Positions 881-28,147 of a stretch of 31,622 nucleotides of DNA are shown here, piece by piece. Position numbers and translations under genes: made by a program. The stretch comes from a virus. Under the pieces are notes generated by a model. That model had not been told where the DNA came from. It was given only the letters and a program-made list of their open reading frames with translations, and did no database searches. The stretch spans positions 1-31,622 of IMG/VR virus record IMGVR_UViG_3300032289_002104; one strand, 5' to 3'. Numbering within the stretch: the stretch's first letter is position 1; every line of letters begins with the position of its first letter.

Positions 881-1348
881 CTATAATCCTAATTTTTTAA
901 GTTGTGAAATTGTATTATCCGCTGATGTATGGTGTATTCCAATACCACCAGCAGCATTCCATTCATTTATGGTTTGTTCCATATCATCAATTAATATTCT
1001 ATTAGGACCTGCAAACATTTGTTTATAGGCACGCTGATAGAAATATAATTTCTTATATTGATTATTAATATGCATTTTACACCATGCTTCCTTACCTACT
1101 TTAGATGAAGGATCTTGTGATGGTGAAGATAAAATGTTAGGTTTGTAGCGTTTAATGTAGCGCCATAACGTTTGGCCATCTGGCATCCAGGGTAGATTGG
1201 CCCAAAAAGCGGCCCCTTCTTCCTCTATTGGTTGCCAAAAGGTAGCATCACCTTTAACATATTGTTTTGTGTGAACACCTGTTAGATCGTAATAACCTTT
1301 TTCAAAATAGACAAGGACACCGTCCATATCAGAGTAAATTGTATACAT
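881..1348 (-). CDS. HAD-family 5'(3')-deoxyribonucleotidase-like phosphatase
   Basis: The 155-residue protein opens with the HAD motif I, DMDGVL (Asp7 and Asp9 as nucleophile and general acid), and carries the late motif ILIDDMEQTINEW around residues 117-129, where the paired aspartates bind magnesium. The FWANLPWMPDGQTLWRYIK segment matches the cap-side region of phage and bacterial 5'(3')-nucleotidases. ILSSPS after the central strand supplies the motif II serine, and a lysine (SSKVGKEAW) fits motif III. These enzymes dephosphorylate (deoxy)nucleoside monophosphates and, in phages, are assumed to adjust nucleotide pools. It has none of the tag peptide found on the next three genes upstream. 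Family call is strong; substrate is inferred. Confidence 0.85.
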   Translation of the reverse strand: MYTIYSDMDGVLVYFEKGYYDLTGVHTKQYVKGDATFWQPIEEEGAAFWANLPWMPDGQTLWRYIKRYKPNILSSPSQDPSSKVGKEAWCKMHINNQYKKLYFYQRAYKQMFAGPNRILIDDMEQTINEWNAAGGIGIHHTSADNTISQLKKLGL

Positions 1349-1365
1349 AACTTTATTTTTATTTA

Positions 1366-1845
1366 TTAAAAATGATCTATAATATTAACTTTATCTATAA
1401 GTTCATCGTCAATATCTTCTTCAGGAACTATAGTATCAATTTGTAATATATAGCTTGGGCTTAAATATCCTGATTTTTTTGATATAATTCTTTCTTCAAA
1501 TAGTTCAGGAAATTTAGATGATGTTTTCCAATTTTTATCTCCAGCCATCCATACATTTTCAACATTAATTGGTTCTACCTTATATCTTTCTGATATTTTA
1601 TCTCCATCTAATTTAATTCTAACATCAAAATCAGTTAAATTAGATAAATAATCAATAACGCCTGCTCCTATCTTATCTCTAGTAACTGATATAGAATAAG
1701 TATTTTTATGTTGAGATAATGTTGAATTATTAGGTTCAAATTTTAATCCAGTTTTAATTATACCGTCTAGAAATGAAATATTAGTAAAATGGTATAAAGG
1801 ACCAATTTGTTTAGCTTCGCGTAATATGTCTATTAATTTAATCAT
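1366..1845 (-). CDS. Putative ADP-ribosyltransferase-like protein with capsid-targeting-like N-terminus
   Basis: This 159-residue protein begins with a short helical tag ending ILREA (residues 7-11), then YHFTNISFLDGIIKTGLKF, an ISVTRDK strand, an RIKLDGDKIS segment and a late FEERI motif. The order His (YHFT), Ser/Thr strand and Glu resembles the H-Y/T-E arrangement of DarT-like ADP-ribosyltransferase folds, which transfer ADP-ribose from NAD+ to proteins or nucleic acids. The ISxTR...LDGDK pattern also recurs in uncharacterised T4-like phage proteins. T4 packages its transferase Alt in the head, so the tag and ART-like fold fit together well. The start overlaps the stop of the 837-residue gene by one base (TAATG). 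The catalytic role is inferred from motif order only; another small alpha/beta fold remains possible. Confidence 0.6.
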   Translation of the reverse strand: MIKLIDILREAKQIGPLYHFTNISFLDGIIKTGLKFEPNNSTLSQHKNTYSISVTRDKIGAGVIDYLSNLTDFDVRIKLDGDKISERYKVEPINVENVWMAGDKNWKTSSKFPELFEERIISKKSGYLSPSYILQIDTIVPEEDIDDELIDKVNIIDHF

Positions 1846-4358
1846 TATTGATATATTTCTTCGTTTTGTTTGCCGAATTTTCTTAACAATACACCTGCTT
1901 GTGCATTTGCTTCATTTTCAATTTCACTACCCGTTTTACCACTATTTGGTTCTAGACGTCCATCTTCAGCTTGTTTGCGATGTACTAATTCATGTGCTAA
2001 TGTACGTAATAAATCAGCCATATTACGATTTTTAACATATAACCATATTTTATCGTTATTAGGATTAAATGAACCAAATGAGCGCATTTCTTTAGCCATA
2101 TTATTATCTCTTGATAATGTAAGAGATGTTGGGGGTTTTTGTATTCCTAATTCTTTAATAGCAAATCCAATGAATTGTTTTAATAATTTTTTATCGTTTG
2201 GTGTATTTAAACCTTCGTTTAATGATTGTAATTTTACTTTGGCTATTTGTTTATCGTATTTGTTTGATAATTCAACAAAACCTTGTAAAAATTCTTTCAT
2301 TTTTGCATCAACAGGAACTTCTTCATAATTTACTGTAAGTGGTGTTCCACCTAGTTCTGGATTATATTTTGGGGCACTATTGTATCTTGTTTTTAAGTCC
2401 CTAGCTTGTTTTTCTAAATCTTCCACAGTACCTATTTTATAAAAGGATGATGATAGGTGAAGAGGTTTATTTGTTAAACTATCAACAACATCATATTTAA
2501 ATAATTTTAAAGAACCTTTTAAAAGACTAATCACTTTAGCTTTATTTTCTAAATAACCTGAAAAGCGTTTTATTGGATTATTATTGTGTATATAATCGTC
2601 TAAAGCTGCATATTTTTCTTGTTCTGCATTATAAACATTAACATCAACATCATCTTCAGATGGAGATTCGTATTTTAATACATCTTTTAATCCTTTAAGT
2701 TGAGGATATGTGTCTGCCGCTTCTTCAAAAGTTTCATACCATTCAGTTCCATTATTATCTGCTTCTGTAATAGAATATCCTCCATTATCCTCTTCTACCA
2801 TTACTACTAACAAATGAGTATTATCTAAATATCTACCATTTAGGTGTTTACCACTAGGTCTATTGTCATCAAATACAAAATATGTAAGTGAAGGATATAT
2901 ATCCTCTTCTGCCCCAGCTCTATATTGAGCATATGCATTTCCTAATCCACGTGCTGATATGCAAAAAGTATACCCATGACCATATTTTATACATGATTTT
3001 TTATCTCCCGCTTTATATACCCTAATGCCGTTTTGGTTGTAAACTAAATCTGCATTATCTACTTCACCATCATTTATTTTACCTGCCTTAATGCGTTTAG
3101 GTTCGATTGAGGCCGCTGTGTCTACTAAATCGTCCCAACTATATTGTAATATATCTCTTTGTTCTACATTATCTTTTATTTGATCAAAACGTTTAATCAC
3201 TTTCTTTATTTCATCATCAGTTAATTCTGGATCTTCCTGTTTGAATTTCTGTATTAACTTATTAATAAGACCAGCCGAATATTCTCTAATTAATCCTTCT
3301 CCAAGAGAAGTAGGTTGATGTAATTGCTTAGTTTGTAAATTCAATGTGCCCTGTAATACAGTAGGGATTGAACCTAAAGCTCTATATAATGATAATACCA
3401 CTTCTCCGCCTACCAAATAGTATTTATCTTGTCCATAACATAATACAAGTGGTAATGGCATATCCTTACCAGCTTTGATTTGATCAATATATGGTTTAGG
3501 ATTTATACCTAATTTTAAAGCGTGTTGAATAGCATCATCTAATGTTTTCATTTTATATGATTTGCTATTCTCTAAATTAGACCACATATCATCATTTAAT
3601 ACTACTTCATCCCCACCATTAAAAGCATATTCCATATCAGGTATTGGTAGATTAAATACAGCAGCTGCCTTTTCAATTTTACCACGATTTTGTGTTATAT
3701 AATCTTGATATGGTGGTTCATCAAAATTAATTGGTGGTGATTCTTGTAATGGTTGTTCTGCAGGTGGTTGTTCAGCTGGAGGTGCTTCTGTAGGTGGTTG
3801 TTCAGTTGGTGTTTCTTCAGGTTTTTCTTCTGATTTAGTATTTAATGCTTGTAGGAATTCATCTACCGATACTCCATCAGGTAAGTATTTTGCTATTTCT
3901 TCCTTATTCTTTTGAGCTAAAGCCATTCGCAAGTTAGTTGCACTAACACCCTCAATTGCACCAGCATCAAATACTTTTACATTTGGATATTTTTCAATGC
4001 TCTTATAGCGATCCATTTCACCTTTACCAAATGCTACTAAAAACTCAGTATCAGGATTATCTTTAACTACGTTGTATACATCTTTAACAGGACTAGCATC
4101 AGCAGATATTTTTATTTCAACGGATCCATTAAATTTATTTTTATATAAATCCCATACAGCAATACTTTCATCAGCAGTAACACCTTCACGTGTTTGAGGT
4201 GATATAAGTACTACTACTTGATCTGCTGCTTTAAGTAATTGTTCAATAACATCAACATGTCCTTTATGGGGTGGTTTAAATGCACCGGGAAATAATGCTA
4301 TTGTTGGTTGGTCTTCTGCTTCTAATATTATATTAGCTAAATATTGTCCTAAGTTCAT
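1845..4358 (-). CDS. Multidomain protein: nucleotidyltransferase, ParB-like, unknown domain, zinc metallopeptidase
   Basis: The 837-residue chain has several parts. Residues 1-14 form a tag ending IILEA. Residues 18-170 form a HIGH-type nucleotidyltransferase, with GAFKPPHKGH at 25-34 and the late motif GVSATNLR, as in NMN adenylyltransferases and related cytidylyltransferases. A Pro/Glu/Gln-rich linker follows. A ParB/sulfiredoxin-like domain comes next (PLPLVLCYGQDKYYLVGGE...YRALGSIPTVL). A domain of unknown function contains KYGHGYTFCIS, a YFVFDDNR strand and an ITEADNNGTEW strand. The C-terminus is a zinc peptidase with HELVH at 789-793 and a glutamate-rich helix (EIENEANAQAG) for the third ligand. 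This layout matches the polyvalent proteins described in phages and conjugative elements, thought to enter the host with DNA. It overlaps the kinase gene upstream by ATGA. Domain calls are good for both ends and weaker in the middle. Confidence 0.82.
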   Translation of the reverse strand: MNLGQYLANIILEAEDQPTIALFPGAFKPPHKGHVDVIEQLLKAADQVVVLISPQTREGVTADESIAVWDLYKNKFNGSVEIKISADASPVKDVYNVVKDNPDTEFLVAFGKGEMDRYKSIEKYPNVKVFDAGAIEGVSATNLRMALAQKNKEEIAKYLPDGVSVDEFLQALNTKSEEKPEETPTEQPPTEAPPAEQPPAEQPLQESPPINFDEPPYQDYITQNRGKIEKAAAVFNLPIPDMEYAFNGGDEVVLNDDMWSNLENSKSYKMKTLDDAIQHALKLGINPKPYIDQIKAGKDMPLPLVLCYGQDKYYLVGGEVVLSLYRALGSIPTVLQGTLNLQTKQLHQPTSLGEGLIREYSAGLINKLIQKFKQEDPELTDDEIKKVIKRFDQIKDNVEQRDILQYSWDDLVDTAASIEPKRIKAGKINDGEVDNADLVYNQNGIRVYKAGDKKSCIKYGHGYTFCISARGLGNAYAQYRAGAEEDIYPSLTYFVFDDNRPSGKHLNGRYLDNTHLLVVMVEEDNGGYSITEADNNGTEWYETFEEAADTYPQLKGLKDVLKYESPSEDDVDVNVYNAEQEKYAALDDYIHNNNPIKRFSGYLENKAKVISLLKGSLKLFKYDVVDSLTNKPLHLSSSFYKIGTVEDLEKQARDLKTRYNSAPKYNPELGGTPLTVNYEEVPVDAKMKEFLQGFVELSNKYDKQIAKVKLQSLNEGLNTPNDKKLLKQFIGFAIKELGIQKPPTSLTLSRDNNMAKEMRSFGSFNPNNDKIWLYVKNRNMADLLRTLAHELVHRKQAEDGRLEPNSGKTGSEIENEANAQAGVLLRKFGKQNEEIYQ

Positions 4359-5137
4359 TGTAAAAAATTATTTATTTTAGTTTTAGCATCTTCGATATCA
4401 GTAAAATCAGGGGTCATTTTAAGTTGATTTGAGATTTCTTGATTCATAGCATCTATTTCTTGTCTTTTTTTAAGTAATTCCTCTGGTGAATACTGTTTGC
4501 CGCTACCCTTTACAGTATTAAAAAACATTCGTTTAGCATAATCAGGATCATATTCAGCTTTACCTTCAGGATCATTATTTACTAGTACAAAATTATTACC
4601 GAATGCTTCCTTATAAGTATCAATATTTTTATTTACATCTTTCCATGTACGTAATACAATAGCAGGAGGTAAAGTACGTTCACCTTTTTTTTCTCGTTCA
4701 ACATTTCGTTTGAGGGAAGTATAAGGTGAAGCCCAAACCATAATCATCATTGTATCATATCCTAATGCTTCTAATTCTTGTTTTTTCTTTAATAATGGTC
4801 TACTAGCAGCACCTGTACCATTAATTACAATGTTATTTTTAGCAGCGGTTAATTGTGCATATTTTTCTTTAGTAGCTACTTGAGCTTTACCCATTAATTT
4901 GGCTGCTTGGGATAATTGTGCTTGGTTAAAATTAGCAATATTTAATTTATCATCAGTAACTAGACCTGCTGCTTTTAATAATTCTTTATAAGGAGTATCT
5001 ACATTAATTTCTTCTAACCCTAAAGGTTTAATATAATTTGTATATATATAATCTTTTCCAGAACCGGCACTACCGGCCATGAATATAGCTTTTGGTTGAG
5101 ATGATGCTTCTAATAGTAAGTCTAATAATTTGATCAT
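4355..5137 (-). CDS. P-loop kinase (zeta-toxin/AAA-like) with capsid-targeting-like N-terminus
   Basis: This 260-residue protein starts with a tag ending LLLEA (residues 7-11), directly followed by a Walker A loop GSAGSGKD (22-29). Later it has VINGTGAASRP, a hydrophobic strand with MIMVWASP, and an Arg-rich lid region NVEREKKGERTLPPAIV. This order (P-loop, NGTG strand, Arg lid) is that of small-molecule kinases of the zeta-toxin / chloramphenicol phosphotransferase type, which phosphorylate nucleotide sugars or other small substrates. The C-terminal 50 residues are a charged helical extension. It heads a coupled group: its stop overlaps the start of the 837-residue gene (ATGA), which in turn abuts the ART-like gene. 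The substrate cannot be told from the sequence. Confidence 0.78.
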   Translation of the reverse strand: MIKLLDLLLEASSQPKAIFMAGSAGSGKDYIYTNYIKPLGLEEINVDTPYKELLKAAGLVTDDKLNIANFNQAQLSQAAKLMGKAQVATKEKYAQLTAAKNNIVINGTGAASRPLLKKKQELEALGYDTMMIMVWASPYTSLKRNVEREKKGERTLPPAIVLRTWKDVNKNIDTYKEAFGNNFVLVNNDPEGKAEYDPDYAKRMFFNTVKGSGKQYSPEELLKKRQEIDAMNQEISNQLKMTPDFTDIEDAKTKINNFLQ

Positions 5138-10043: not shown

Positions 10044-12812
10044 TTATACTAAATAAGTAATAATTGATTTATTATCAGCTGCGCTACTAAACCAATTAGG
10101 TGATGGTTGAACTTTATATACTGAATATCCATATGGATAATCTCCAGGGGAATGTTGAAAAATTTGTACTAGATTTGAATCATCATGTGTTGTTATGTTA
10201 ACATATGTTAATCCAAAAACATATGATCCTGTTGGTGATGCAGAACCAGTTAAATAATAATTATCAAATGTGAAAGTTTGTAAACTTCCTGTTGGATTGG
10301 TTGCGATATTTAATAAAGAGGATGCTGCTATTGTGTTTGAAGACGTTGCTAATAAATTATTAGGTAATCCATCAAGTTGATCATATAAATTTAATTGAAG
10401 ATCAAATACAGGAGAATTTACTCTTCCTAATTGTAAAGATATATTTTGTAATATTCCATTTTCAAACATTGAAAATGTTTGACCATAATCAATAGAACCA
10501 CTATCACCACCAAAAGAAAAAAATGAATATGAAAAAGCATTACTACTACCAGTAACAATACTAATAGATTGTGAGGGCATGGATACTGTGTTTACAGTCC
10601 ATCCTTTATCTATTAAAGATAGAGCACTAATATATCCTTCTGGTGATGGAGCAGAATTTGTTCCATTTAATAATACTGAACCACCCGTTCTTCCAGCATT
10701 ATCTAAATCATATAATATATTATCAACTGATGTTTGATCTAATAAATTATCATAAGCCCAAAAATATTGTATTGTTGGAGATACACCTGAAGATGTATAA
10801 CTTGTTAAATAATTTTCATGTACATAAAATTGATTCAGAGCTATATTATTAGATAAATTAGGTATAGATCCTGATAATTTATTTGTAGCAACATTAACAA
10901 AATTTAAAGAAGTATTATTAGTTAATGAGGGTATAGATCCTGTTAAATTATTACCACCACAACTAAAATATTGTAAATTAGTATTATTATTTAAACTAGG
11001 TATAGATCCTGATATTTTACAAGAAGCTGCTGAGAATAAAATTAAGTTAGTATTATTATCTAGATTAGGTAAAGGACCAGTTATGCTAGTATCTGAACAT
11101 ATAAAATTAACTATACTAGTTGGTAAGGTTGGAATTGAACCAGTTATACCTAAATTAATATTGCAAAAAAAGTTAGTTAAATTAGTATTGTTAGATAAAT
11201 TAGGTATAGATCCTGATATTATGTTATTACTTACATTAAAATATTGTAAATTAGTATTGTTAGATAAATTAGGTATACTACCTGTTAGTCTATTAGAAGA
11301 AACATCAAAATATTGTAAATTAATATTATTAATTAAATCAGGGATACTTCCTGACAATTTATTATTTCCAACATCATAATATCTTAAAGCTGTATTACTA
11401 CTTAAAGAAGGTATACTACCTGATATATACAAATTATTGCTAGCAATAAATTGTTCTAATTCAGTATTAGTTGATATATCTATTAAATATCCTTCTGGGT
11501 TAGATTGAGGAGCATATGTAAAATTTAATAAGTTTGGATTAGCACTTATATTAGGATAAGAAATACGCTCAGTTCCCTCTGTTGTTAAATTTAATAAGTT
11601 AGTTAGTCCAAAAGAATAAAAACCAGTGGTTTTATAATTAAATTGAGAAGATATATCAATACTAGTTACATTAGCTAAATCATTACCTAATAAATAAACC
11701 TGATTAGATCCACTATATGATACATCACTTATTGGGAGTCCTGAGTATATTGCCCAATTATCAACAGTAAATGATCCAGTTCCTGGTAATACTGCGGATG
11801 ATGAATAGGTTAATAATATTCCTGGATATGAATTTATACTTGCTGTAATTTCATAATTAGAAATATTGGATGATGTAAAACTAGAAGTTAAATATGTTCC
11901 ATAAGATGATGATGAAAATATAATTAATTTTGATACTACATCTGTTAAGGTTAAATTTAAATTTGAAAGAATACCCCCACTTCCTGATAATATCAATGAC
12001 ATATTACTATACCACGGTATAGAAAATGATCCTTGATTATAAGTAGTATCTGTGTTGACTAATAATGATGATGCAGTTACAGCTGTACCCCCTGTAAAAT
12101 ATGTAGTTGTACTTCCTGAAGTTAAATAAAGATTATTTGCTAATGGAGCAGGAGTAGAAGGAATAGATTTAAAAAATAAACCAGCTGCAGGAGATCCTGA
12201 TGTGGATGATGTTATATATTGTAGAGCCGAAGCATAATTTATATTAGAAGCACTAGTATTAAATGAAGCTGTTATATTTCCTAGGGTAGCAGCAAAGCTT
12301 GATCCTGTAGATACAAATATTGTTGTTGAAGTATTAGATGGTTTTGTGCTACCTGTTATAGCAATAATAATACCATTTACTATAAATGAACCTGTTGGAG
12401 AGGTAAATGGGATTAAACTAGCACTACTAAAAGTAACTGATGATGTTGTTGCTAAAGTAAGTGTATTTGTTTTAACAGAATCATTATATAATTTAAAAGA
12501 ATTTAATGATGATGTCGTTATTGTATTTGGTGCAAGATACCACACTATACGAGATGAACCAGTGAAAGGTGATGTTGGTGGTTCTGGGGTTGATCCCGTA
12601 GGACCAGTATATGTGTATGCTGGGTAGTATGATAAATTTGTTGTAAATAGAGGAAATGTTGTTACTACTGTACTTCCACTAAAAGCTATTATTTGATATA
12701 AACTTCCACATGTTATTAAACTACTAATATCTGTCCATGAGCTATATTCTCCTAATTCAGTTATTAATTCTAAACTAGAAGATGCTTGAGTATAGTATAA
12801 ATTTTGAGCCAT
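10044..12812 (-). CDS. Tail fibre-like protein with plant-type leucine-rich repeats
   Basis: The 922-residue protein is extremely Ser/Thr/Asn/Gly-rich. An N-terminal beta-rich region (to about residue 390) is followed by about nine leucine-rich repeats of 21-24 residues (about 460-670) with the consensus GSIPxLxNNTxLxxFxVxxNxL, the LxGxIP type best known from plant receptors and some bacterial surface proteins. After the repeats come a short linker and a C-terminal beta domain (about 755-922) with YGQTFSMFENGILQNISL and FDLQLNLYDQLDG, resembling a jelly-roll surface domain. LRRs bind proteins or glycans, so this could be a host-recognition fibre. It is placed 13 bp after the 1949-residue tail gene. 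The receptor-binding role is inferred from position and fold. Confidence 0.78.
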   Translation of the reverse strand: MAQNLYYTQASSSLELITELGEYSSWTDISSLITCGSLYQIIAFSGSTVVTTFPLFTTNLSYYPAYTYTGPTGSTPEPPTSPFTGSSRIVWYLAPNTITTSSLNSFKLYNDSVKTNTLTLATTSSVTFSSASLIPFTSPTGSFIVNGIIIAITGSTKPSNTSTTIFVSTGSSFAATLGNITASFNTSASNINYASALQYITSSTSGSPAAGLFFKSIPSTPAPLANNLYLTSGSTTTYFTGGTAVTASSLLVNTDTTYNQGSFSIPWYSNMSLILSGSGGILSNLNLTLTDVVSKLIIFSSSSYGTYLTSSFTSSNISNYEITASINSYPGILLTYSSSAVLPGTGSFTVDNWAIYSGLPISDVSYSGSNQVYLLGNDLANVTSIDISSQFNYKTTGFYSFGLTNLLNLTTEGTERISYPNISANPNLLNFTYAPQSNPEGYLIDISTNTELEQFIASNNLYISGSIPSLSSNTALRYYDVGNNKLSGSIPDLINNINLQYFDVSSNRLTGSIPNLSNNTNLQYFNVSNNIISGSIPNLSNNTNLTNFFCNINLGITGSIPTLPTSIVNFICSDTSITGPLPNLDNNTNLILFSAASCKISGSIPSLNNNTNLQYFSCGGNNLTGSIPSLTNNTSLNFVNVATNKLSGSIPNLSNNIALNQFYVHENYLTSYTSSGVSPTIQYFWAYDNLLDQTSVDNILYDLDNAGRTGGSVLLNGTNSAPSPEGYISALSLIDKGWTVNTVSMPSQSISIVTGSSNAFSYSFFSFGGDSGSIDYGQTFSMFENGILQNISLQLGRVNSPVFDLQLNLYDQLDGLPNNLLATSSNTIAASSLLNIATNPTGSLQTFTFDNYYLTGSASPTGSYVFGLTYVNITTHDDSNLVQIFQHSPGDYPYGYSVYKVQPSPNWFSSAADNKSIITYLV
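10800..11425 (-). repeat. Leucine-rich repeat coding array, about nine units of ~69 bp
   Basis: Within the fibre gene the units recur every 63-72 bp. Each starts with a minus-strand GGAT-C/A-TATACC-type block coding GSIP and carries a run coding NNTNLQYF. Seven units are 23 residues long, one is 24 and one is shortened to 21. The close DNA similarity of units suggests recent expansion or recombination between units. Confidence 0.8.
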
Positions 12813-22426: not shown

Positions 22427-22789
22427 TTAATCTAATTGTCTTAATCCTGATCTATCCATTGGTGACATATTAGCCGCTGCGTCATTAATAAAGGCTAGAT
22501 ATGGGTTTACTTTTTCACCAGTTGATTCGTCAACAGCATCTATAACTTTTAAATCGTTACGTTGTGGCTGTTGAAAACCAAACTCAGCTCCCATTTTAGC
22601 CATTAATGAGCTACGTACATCTCCAGATAATGGAGCTACATCCGCACTAGTAAAATTCATTGTTTTACCTTCACGTAATGTTTGTTTGTTTTGTTTAGCT
22701 AATGTTTCATTAATGATATCAGGTAATTCTTCATGGAGTGCCTCAATTACTGCTTCTCTAATAAGTTTTTTAAATAATTTTACATTCAT
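22427..22789 (-). CDS. Small protein with capsid-targeting-like N-terminus in the baseplate block
   Basis: The 120-residue protein begins with a basic amphipathic helix ending LIREA (residues 9-13), very like the tags on the genes at 1.4-5.1 kb. It continues as a helix, with a later NFTSADVAPLSG, SLMAKMGAEFGF and a C-terminal PYLAFINDAAANMSPMDRSGLRQLD. The last part recurs, as far as I recall, in small baseplate-block proteins of environmental T4-like phages. It lies between the Lys-rich 474-residue protein and gp25. It might be a virion protein processed by the prohead protease, or the helix may simply be a packing segment. No function is assigned. Confidence 0.65.
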   Translation of the reverse strand: MNVKLFKKLIREAVIEALHEELPDIINETLAKQNKQTLREGKTMNFTSADVAPLSGDVRSSLMAKMGAEFGFQQPQRNDLKVIDAVDESTGEKVNPYLAFINDAAANMSPMDRSGLRQLD

Positions 22790-27931: not shown

Positions 27932-28147
27932 CTATTTATTCAACCACTTTTCTTCTACATATATACGATCATTATAATTATCTTTAATTGATTCAATTAC
28001 AAAAGCATTAAGAACAGCTAACCCAATAAATGTAATAAAACTAAAACTATGAGTATAAAGAATACAAAATACTTGAGCAAGAACAGTAATAATATAACTT
28101 CCTACAATTAATAAATTTCTTTTTGTTTTTAAATTTAAACTTTTCAT
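27932..28147 (-). CDS. Small two-helix membrane protein
   Basis: The 71-residue protein has a basic N-terminus (KTKR) followed by two transmembrane helices, about residues 12-32 (LLIVGSYIITVLAQVFCIL) and 36-52 (FSFITFIGLAVLNAFVI), and a charged C-terminal tail with IKDNYNDRIYVEEKW. Both termini would be cytoplasmic. It is the last gene in transcription order that carries the repeated GGCA-N12-TATATTCACG module, which lies 40 bp upstream of the start. Function is unknown; it could act on the host envelope, but nothing in the sequence shows it. Confidence 0.7.
   Translation of the reverse strand: MKSLNLKTKRNLLIVGSYIITVLAQVFCILYTHSFSFITFIGLAVLNAFVIESIKDNYNDRIYVEEKWLNK

Follow-up and report, generated by a model that had tools for sequence, protein, structure and literature searches.

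A shared N-terminal tag on three adjacent genes of a T4-like phage points to probable, protease-processed head cargo

The window, the whole stretch of DNA analysed here, is a 31.6-kb fragment of a T4-like phage, with a host probably in the Bacteroidota. Three mutually adjacent genes on the minus strand encode an ART-like protein (1366-1845), an 837-aa protein (1845-4358) and a P-loop kinase (4355-5137). Since the genes overlap by 1 to 4 bp, start over stop, they probably form one operon. Head genes were absent from the window itself, and the genomes of relatives were searched for the N-terminal tag, the prohead protease and head genes. The features are listed below; a slash marks the predicted cut or module start, and the basis of each assignment is given in brackets.

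5108-5137, minus strand: kinase tag, residues 1-10, MIKLLDLLLE (kept in kinase homologues)
4355-5107, minus strand: predicted mature P-loop kinase, Zeta_toxin/AAA_33 family, with stop codon (PF06414, PF13671)
4320-4358, minus strand: leader of the putative 837-aa polyprotein, residues 1-13, MNLGQYLANIILE, predicted cut after E13 (NMNAT homologues)
3741-4319, minus strand: module 1, residues 14-206, NMN-adenylyltransferase-like/cytidylyltransferase-like domain and Pro-rich linker (PF01467, phrog_395)
3282-3740, minus strand: module 2, residues 207-359, starting E/SPPINF after PLQE ([LI]xE before SPPI)
2214-3281, minus strand: module 3, residues 360-715, starting E/YSAG after LIRE (starts of stand-alone homologues)
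1848-2213, minus strand: module 4, residues 716-837, starting E/GLNT after SLNE, metallopeptidase-like (HExxH)
1816-1845, minus strand: tag of the ART-fold protein, residues 1-10, MIKLIDILRE (Glu10 in homologues; AF2)
1366-1815, minus strand: predicted mature ART-fold protein, DarT/Tpt1-like, with stop codon (AF2, Foldseek, VIA)
881-1348, minus strand: 5'-nucleotidase-like (DMDGV) neighbour gene, untagged in the window (module-by-module reading of relatives)
22427-22789, minus strand: baseplate-block protein, rejected as a fourth tag candidate (Glu register, homologue conservation)

In relatives, this 5'-nucleotidase-like gene has either a tag of its own or a place in a fusion, where an L/I-x-E site precedes it.

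The ART-like protein begins with MIKLIDILRE/A, the kinase with MIKLLDLLLE/A and the 837-aa protein with MNLGQYLANIILE/A. These tags are 10 to 13 residues long and end in LRE, LLE and ILE, respectively. The shared N-terminus, as claimed in an earlier sequence-only reading of this DNA, is real. The search beyond the three genes that this reading had called for was run in relatives, where the pattern MIKLx[DNE][IL]LxE matched 112 of 3,337 pooled N-termini, versus 1 of 10,978 internal-Met 10-mers. A looser pattern in the T4 register gave 52 matches across the window and nine large relatives, versus about 4 in shuffles. The domains behind the tag are indeed unrelated: it was found on 33 unrelated cargo clusters in relatives, and across these clusters conservation ends at residue 10, with Glu10 in 29 of the 33. 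A scan of viral contigs returned at least 120 tagged stretches, versus 1 for a permuted pattern and 1 in bacterial and archaeal genomes; the blind scan of viral contigs gave 52 cargo clusters among the matches listed, 29 of them new. Glu10 was present in 126 of 148 MIKL proteins, and in 12 of the 22 that lack it the first Glu is at residue 14. Pfam searches with the other cargo representatives mostly returned no family.

In the capsid-targeting sequence (CTS) of T4 IPIII, residues 4 and 7 serve targeting and residues 8 and 10 serve cutting, at L/I-x-E (PMC9026906). The MIKL tags of the ART-like protein and the kinase have hydrophobic residues at both targeting positions, and the MNLG leader of the 837-aa protein, with 13 residues and Glu13, lies outside the strict T4 register. 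The gp21 motif had been given as [IL]-x-x-E in the sequence-only reading and needs correction to L/I-x-E; the three tags fit both. The residue after Glu in MIKL tags is often Ile or Val, unlike gp23, where it is always E/A, and cutting at some of these tags may therefore be inefficient. Among cargo homologues, different leaders swap ahead of a fixed E/x site, and the NMNAT of one clade is untagged.

The protein at 22427-22789 had been proposed as a fourth tagged protein and was dropped. The Glu of its LIREA is at residue 12, and its family is conserved as LIKEAVxEAxxEEL through residues 9-22 with no drop after Glu.

The fold of the ART-like protein, as modelled, is DarT/Tpt1-like. An AF2 model built from 31 sequences reached pLDDT 84 (a four-sequence input gave 35), and Foldseek matched it to DarT1 (8baq, E 3.7e-4) and KptA (E 4e-4). 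In VIA, Z was 9.5, with DarTG (7omu) aligned over 132 residues and Tpt1 (8tfi) over 84, against Z of 6-7 for unrelated rows. Mean pLDDT was 50 for residues 1-10 versus 83-95 for the next 30, which indicates that the tag sits outside the folded domain. Glu10 of the tag is invariant in 31 homologues. Y18, H19, R56 and E117 are also conserved and are candidate catalytic residues.

The kinase domain scored over Pfam cut-offs for PF06414 (Zeta_toxin, E 2.5e-10) and PF13671 (AAA_33, E 9e-7). Its tag is kept as M-I-[KSG]-L-x-x-[LI]-[LI]-x-E with invariant Glu10 in 37 aligned homologues, which were chosen via the tag pattern; the unfiltered homologue list was also tagged throughout. The homologues share the tag; a random helix absent from them would have counted against the sequence-only reading. 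In HTVC008M, a kinase gene adjoins an NMNAT-like gene.

The 837-aa protein had been taken as one tagged effector. It looks, from its sequence, more like a four-module polyprotein with internal L/I-x-E sites, a reading that is new: an NMNAT-like domain, a HELVH module and two modules that are found separately elsewhere. Each module follows [LI]xE, matching the mature start of stand-alone homologues, and five of the seven [LI]xE sites in the protein lie at module starts. Module 1 matched PF01467 (E 7e-6) and phrog_395 (E 7.8e-9), and in every NMNAT homologue that has a leader, a hydrophobic-x-E site is retained 4-9 residues ahead of the first strand, the leaders being of several unrelated kinds. 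Before module 2, [LI]xE directly precedes SPPI in 11/11 distinct contexts, one of which is the stand-alone MAIFDKQWWTEALQLHE/SPPIEF (L038), although the counts of 11/11 and 12/12 come from modules chosen as cargo modules and hence are not an unbiased sample. Module 2 has an extra SLGE site at residue 354. Stand-alone homologues of module 3 start with E/Y[ST] behind unrelated leaders (MRPIDKFILHVVHNLFPLNE/YS, MNNNFTVGWWKEVLDLNE/YS and MKYSLVELLLNE/YT). Module 4 carries HELVH at residues 789-793, with weak matches, both below cut-offs, to DUF6782 (E 0.006) and Tox-MPTase3 (E 0.087). Some fused homologues retain a whole NLGRYLASLILE leader internally. An automatic [LIVMF]xE test of all domain-fusion joins was uninformative (268/971 versus 22% expected), as its pool mixes contig-edge truncations and tail-protein repeats; the module-by-module reading replaced it.

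The search for a gp21-like prohead protease, also called for earlier, found the gp21 type (PF03420) in 15 of 18 related contigs and 14 of 20 further tag-bearing contigs. Relatives encode a T4-type gp21 protease, portal and gp23, and gp23 carries [IL]VxE/A in every relative read. Tagged genes are concentrated upstream of the protease, within 30 kb of it (37/51 versus 341/1905). In T4, used as a positive control, the register pattern recovered IPII, IPIII and gp24. In the published virion proteome of S-CREM2, it was found in 5 of 52 detected versus 0 of 166 undetected proteins (p=6.6e-4); all five matching proteins were thus virion-detected, one of them an NMNAT (MKNFSSFLTE/A). Cyanophage NMNATs carry a T4-type CTS. 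NMNAT has repeatedly been detected in cyanophage virions by mass spectrometry (S-CREM2, S-SCSM1; PMC10665884, PMC9602691), and the authors were unable to exclude contamination. Our literature search found no virion proteomics of the isolate relative immuto (a Flavobacterium phage, MW353175), and among open-licence papers 'capsid targeting' with 'cyanophage' returned only a T4 review.

We propose, with a probability of about 0.87, that the three genes encode head cargo that carries a CTS-like tag, is cut by the prohead protease and is delivered with the DNA into the host. We strongly infer that tagged proteins are packaged into the head; core binding, actual cleavage, injection and cargo action we infer as well. 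Through a short helix at their N-terminus (MIKLxDILxE or, in variant form, MNLGxYLxxxLLE), the proteins would bind the assembling prohead core, as modelled on the 10-residue CTS of T4 IPIII. The T4 gp21-type protease would then cut after Glu at L/I-x-E and release the protein inside the head. During the next infection, the released proteins would accompany the DNA into the host and work ahead of phage gene expression. The window cargo would be a DarT/Tpt1-like ART-fold protein, a Zeta-toxin-like P-loop kinase and the polyprotein, which the same protease may split at L/I-x-E joins into NMNAT-like, metallopeptidase-like and two uncharacterised modules. The earlier proposal of a T4-CTS-like tag on packaged effectors stands as regards unrelated cargo, IPIII register, gp21-type protease, gp23 site and S-CREM2 proteome, and needs changing as regards the protein at 22427-22789, the parallel with Alt, which is one of function only, and the 837-aa protein as one tagged effector.

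A rival view takes the shared start as chance or as a DNA-level element, for instance a recombination cassette or late promoter, and the tagged genes do sit together in a single block of late genes. However, codons within the tag vary synonymously in relatives and the DNA upstream of tagged genes is no better conserved than controls (information content 12.4 versus 13.9 +/- 1.2 bits), so the tag acts at the protein level and not as a promoter; together with the excess at N-termini, this refutes the explanation. It is very unlikely that the tag binds a non-capsid partner (a host protein, or a replication or tail component) and resembles a CTS by convergence. Other N-terminal helices, of the MKxSxLRxxIKExL class, do occur on overlapping cargo, but against such a partner stand the T4 register and length, both matched exactly, the result for S-CREM2, the protease and gp23 site, the proximity to head genes and a mature start fixed behind different leaders.

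It is somewhat less improbable, though still unlikely, that tagged proteins are loaded into the head and remain in it, as parts of the core or to condense DNA. Directly after gp23, the head-gene block (G001-G003) includes a tagged family of about 112 aa (MIKLQDILLE...), and T4 gp24, a shell protein, carries the same kind of propeptide. Against this, the window cargo has enzyme folds or families (ART fold, P-loop kinase, NMNAT-like), cargo differs between phages, and T4 ejects Alt and its IPs, which carry propeptides of this type (PMC9026906). For the 837-aa protein, a more serious though still doubtful alternative is that the joins are relics of gene fusion and that the protein acts as a whole or is processed by the metallopeptidase-like module it contains. 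Such sites would be expected if genes that each carried a tag had fused, the NLGRYLASLILE leader is kept whole inside some fused forms, and Iyer et al. (PMC5512222) suggest that metallopeptidase domains let polyvalent proteins process themselves. The concentration of [LI]xE sites at module starts and the retention of a site at the same join despite unrelated flanks, as before SPPI, argue instead for the polyprotein reading.

We somewhat favour the broader view that T4-like phages use the tag quite generally to load a large and exchangeable set of injected enzymes, and link several of these in a tagged precursor, a capsid-processed effector polyprotein that the prohead protease would cut at L/I-x-E joins within the head. 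As a predictor of head cargo, a 10-residue tag would pick packaged, probably injected, proteins among T4-like late genes, and it offers an explanation for the recurrence of NMNAT-like enzymes and kinases in cyanophage virions. It yields about 60 candidate cargo clusters for host-takeover and counter-defence assays, among them ART folds, P-loop kinases, NMNAT-like and metallopeptidase-like proteins, where the ART-like and kinase-like readings outside the window are candidates only, from motifs judged by eye. If the prohead protease does cut the polyprotein, capsid maturation would also be an effector-processing step.

The closest known system is the CTS of T4 IPI-IPIII (PMC9026906, PMC3012670), which shares the 10-residue leader, hydrophobic residues 4, 7 and 8, Glu10 and unrelated cargo, with the T4-type gp21 protease, portal and gp23 present in relatives. 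The consensus differs (MIKLxDILxE here, MKTYQEFIAE in T4), Glu is often followed by Ile or Val here, and there are far more cargo families as well as tag-led polyproteins. T4 Alt had been cited as the parallel, and the analogy is confined to function: the window protein, too, is an ART of a T4-like phage and would be packaged behind an N-terminal propeptide. However, the best folds of the window ART are DarT and Tpt1/KptA; the Alt/VIP2-clade ART domain (R-S-E) was not among the fold matches listed, and the sequence showed no relation to Alt. As with the virion NMNAT and kinases of Kyanoviridae (S-CREM2, S-SCSM1; PMC10665884, PMC9602691), an NMNAT-like domain lies behind a T4-register tag. Their tag consensus is different, the window NMNAT belongs to a four-module chain, and the available parts of the two virion papers name no targeting tag. 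Polyvalent proteins (Iyer et al. 2017, PMC5512222) likewise combine unrelated enzyme-like domains with a metallopeptidase-like domain and are predicted to be injected. Curated models matched no hub domain of that class (MPTase, ART, DdrB-ParB and others) here, where HELVH and the below-cut-off Tox-MPTase3 and DUF6782 matches were found. Unlike them, the proteins here have a head-targeting leader and L/I-x-E module starts, with the prohead protease as the predicted processor. The ejected head proteins of phiKZ and SPN3US (PMC5694885) also carry N-terminal propeptides cut after Glu by a gp21-related protease, but most of those propeptides exceed 100 residues and the motif there is S/A-x-E, unlike the short tag described here.

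Three adjacent, slightly overlapping genes of the window begin with a similar short peptide ending in Glu, which we read as a T4-type capsid-targeting sequence (CTS). A slash marks the predicted cut.

1366-1845, minus strand: ART-fold gene, MIKLIDILRE/A
1845-4358, minus strand: gene of the 837-aa protein, MNLGQYLANIILE/A
4355-5137, minus strand: P-loop kinase gene, MIKLLDLLLE/A

The mature parts are unrelated, in agreement with the sequence-only reading of a common start on unrelated domains. The baseplate-block protein at 22427-22789 (minus strand), which that reading had proposed as a fourth bearer, was ruled out as a carrier of the same tag: its LIREA lies in a different register, within a longer conserved helix. 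An orthologue was present in 9/9 relatives and in immuto.

The window spans an entire IMG/VR virus record of 31,622 bases, which is probably a fragment of a phage genome. Its late genes lie on the minus strand, and it carries T4-like baseplate genes (gp6-like, gp25-like), a primase and an exonuclease. Judged by its gp6-like protein, the closest isolate is Flavobacterium phage immuto (47% identity), which suggests a host in Bacteroidota. Nine large contigs of 88-183 kb (G001-G009) were examined whole as relatives and immuto over about 134 kb in three overlapping stretches; gene starts were taken as the first ATG. In the tail-gene region, a 922-aa protein (10044-12812, minus strand) showed leucine-rich repeats by eye (NNTNLQYFDVSSNRLTGSIP...). 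A TAACCAAATAA-like stretch, which may serve in early-gene control or ribosome binding, directly precedes the start codons of small minus-strand genes at 27932, 29934, 30233, 30519 and 30816.

A T4-register pattern (hydrophobic at 4, 7 and 8; Glu at 10) recovered IPII, IPIII, gp24 and gp61.1 from T4 itself, and 52 proteins from the nine relatives and the window against about 4 in shuffles. MIKL.[DNE][IL]L.E occurred at 112 of 3,337 N-termini versus 1 of 10,978 internal methionines. When cargo clusters, whose counts vary with BLAST thresholds, were chosen solely by an MIKL start with positions 7 and 8 hydrophobic, without regard to residue 10, Glu10 was present in 29 of 33. Entropy over these 33 clusters rose from 0.8 bits at residue 10 to 2.7 at residue 11 and at least 3.3 later, and the end of the tag therefore coincides with that of the T4 CTS. 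Tag codons show synonymous variation and the DNA upstream of tagged genes showed no conservation above controls, indicating selection on the peptide. Across all viral contigs MIKLIDILxE was found in at least 120 stretches and a permuted order of its residues in 1; a single match turned up in 257 Gb of bacterial and archaeal genomes. Among the matches listed, 126 of 137 had 30 or fewer open codons upstream, i.e. lay at ORF starts, and 52 cargo clusters were represented, 29 of them new.

The T4 gp21-type prohead protease (PF03420), sought in relatives, was found in 15 of 18 related contigs, and in 14 of 20 tag-bearing contigs taken from the scan matches listed, many of these contigs being incomplete. 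Portal, scaffold and gp23 homologues adjoin it. In all relatives read, gp23 has [IL]VxE/A near residue 62, similar to the T4 gp23 site in type and position. Within 30 kb on the upstream side of the protease lie 37 of 51 tagged genes, compared with 341 of 1,905 for all genes.

The ART-fold protein model (pLDDT 84) had DarT and Tpt1/KptA as top folds; residues 1-10 averaged 50 and the next 30 residues 83-95. The P-loop kinase matched Zeta_toxin and AAA_33 above cut-off. Judged by family membership, the former might ADP-ribosylate nucleic acid, the latter might phosphorylate a small molecule, and NAD supply is a further hypothesis. One MIKL-tagged cargo (stretch L298, 13619, reverse complement) contains EPHTTLLYGLH, which by eye resembles a 2H-phosphoesterase motif; phage proteins that break cyclic-nucleotide defence signals are among those with this fold. 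Several tagged proteins look protein-kinase-like, with a glycine-rich loop followed by VKK/VIK/IIK (L193:3367-3807, immuto26A_178, in a stretch of immuto; L029:8875-9528; G001 91346-91936); Pfam matched no family on the one searched.

Leaders are exchanged on the same cargo. Among the 31 sequences of the ART-fold family, Glu10 does not vary and the mature part mostly opens with xKQVGxLYHF, behind leaders as varied as MIKLIDLLNE, MIKLINILKEITE, MKKSQLKQLIKEEILKALNE, MKYPQLRQIIKEEISKILNE and MDIFDKFFKK...IIQEILGE. NMNAT forms are tagged, fused or, in one clade, bare (MKIAIYPGAFKPP). The 5'-nucleotidase-like gene adjoining the trio (881-1348, minus strand) is untagged in the window; its homologues are tagged in L095 and immuto and elsewhere fused behind MLAE or LNE, so that packaging of this protein may switch between phages. 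A second N-terminal class, approximately M...INEIKRMQxLAGIxxE, was seen on about 25 small proteins of G001-G009 and immuto (e.g. L193:11676-12140, L193:25627-26868). In most genomes read its peptide, RMQKLA[GN]I(I)K, is also the C-terminus of the gp22-like scaffold, as if cargo copied the scaffold peptide. A third class, MKxSxLRxxIKExL.., occurs on several proteins (L244, L274, G002 37673, G005 92130, G008 33640, L193:13189) and substitutes for the MIKL tag on homologous cargo, the L/I-x-E site being retained at the mature start.

The 837-aa protein contains seven [LI]xE sites, five of them at module starts: IILE/A (NMNAT-like module), PLQE/SPPI (module 2), SLGE and LIRE/YS (module 3) and SLNE/G (module 4, with a HELVH motif and weak metallopeptidase profile matches). 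Stand-alone or otherwise fused homologues start at these module points with unrelated leaders (MAIFDKQWWTEALQLHE/SPPIEF, MRPIDKFILHVVHNLFPLNE/YS, MNNNFTVGWWKEVLDLNE/YS). A stand-alone HELEH protein in L001, MIKLIDILKE/GAYDSMT, aligns with the end of the immuto 907-aa protein at an internal VMAE/GRYDTVT. Fusion order differs between relatives, the largest product being 1,358 aa. These sites are most simply read as cleavage points of the prohead protease in a precursor; it is possible that the joins are instead fusion scars, never cut.

In T4, residues 1-10 of IPIII are enough for loading, residues 4 and 7 control targeting, 8 and 10 processing, and gp21 cleaves after L/I-x-E (PMC9026906); T-even internal proteins are a varied set with the CTS as the only common part (PMC3012670). 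MIKL tags agree with the IPIII rules in L4, I/L7, L8 and E10. The residue after Glu is frequently Ile or Val, and cutting may therefore vary. The T4-register pattern, unchanged from the T4 run, was applied to the T4-like cyanophage S-CREM2, which has a published virion proteome (PMC10665884, Table 3). By that table, all five matching proteins were detected in virions:

SAM hydrolase, MKDFDSFLEE
gp13, MKDLHSFLTE
APH/ChoK-like kinase, VKRFDAFLTE
gp136, MQTFSMFFSE
NMNAT-like cytidylyltransferase, MKNFSSFLTE/A

None of the 166 ORFs undetected there matched (Fisher p=6.6e-4), with five positives and an undetected set that may include unexpressed or tiny ORFs. The hypothetical protein gp156 (L399:3513-4226, S-CREM2), also virion-detected, has a TGGNANYNYTPYSDIDLHLV stretch resembling a nucleotidyltransferase motif, and tagged NTase-like proteins (MIKLISIVKQILME/GGNVF) were seen in the relatives of the window. 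The first domain of the 837-aa protein, product of the window's largest tagged gene, matched phrog_395, a cytidyltransferase; kinase and cytidyltransferase genes are likewise neighbours in Pelagibacter phage HTVC008M. Four further cyanophage NMNATs (L401-L404, Kyanoviridae) share the T4-like start MKxFxxFLTE/A with that of S-CREM2 (L399:2109-2969), and an NMNAT is also reported in the virion proteome of cyanophage S-SCSM1 (PMC9602691). T4-like capsid-targeting starts would account for the repeated virion detection of cyanophage NMNAT-like cytidylyltransferases.
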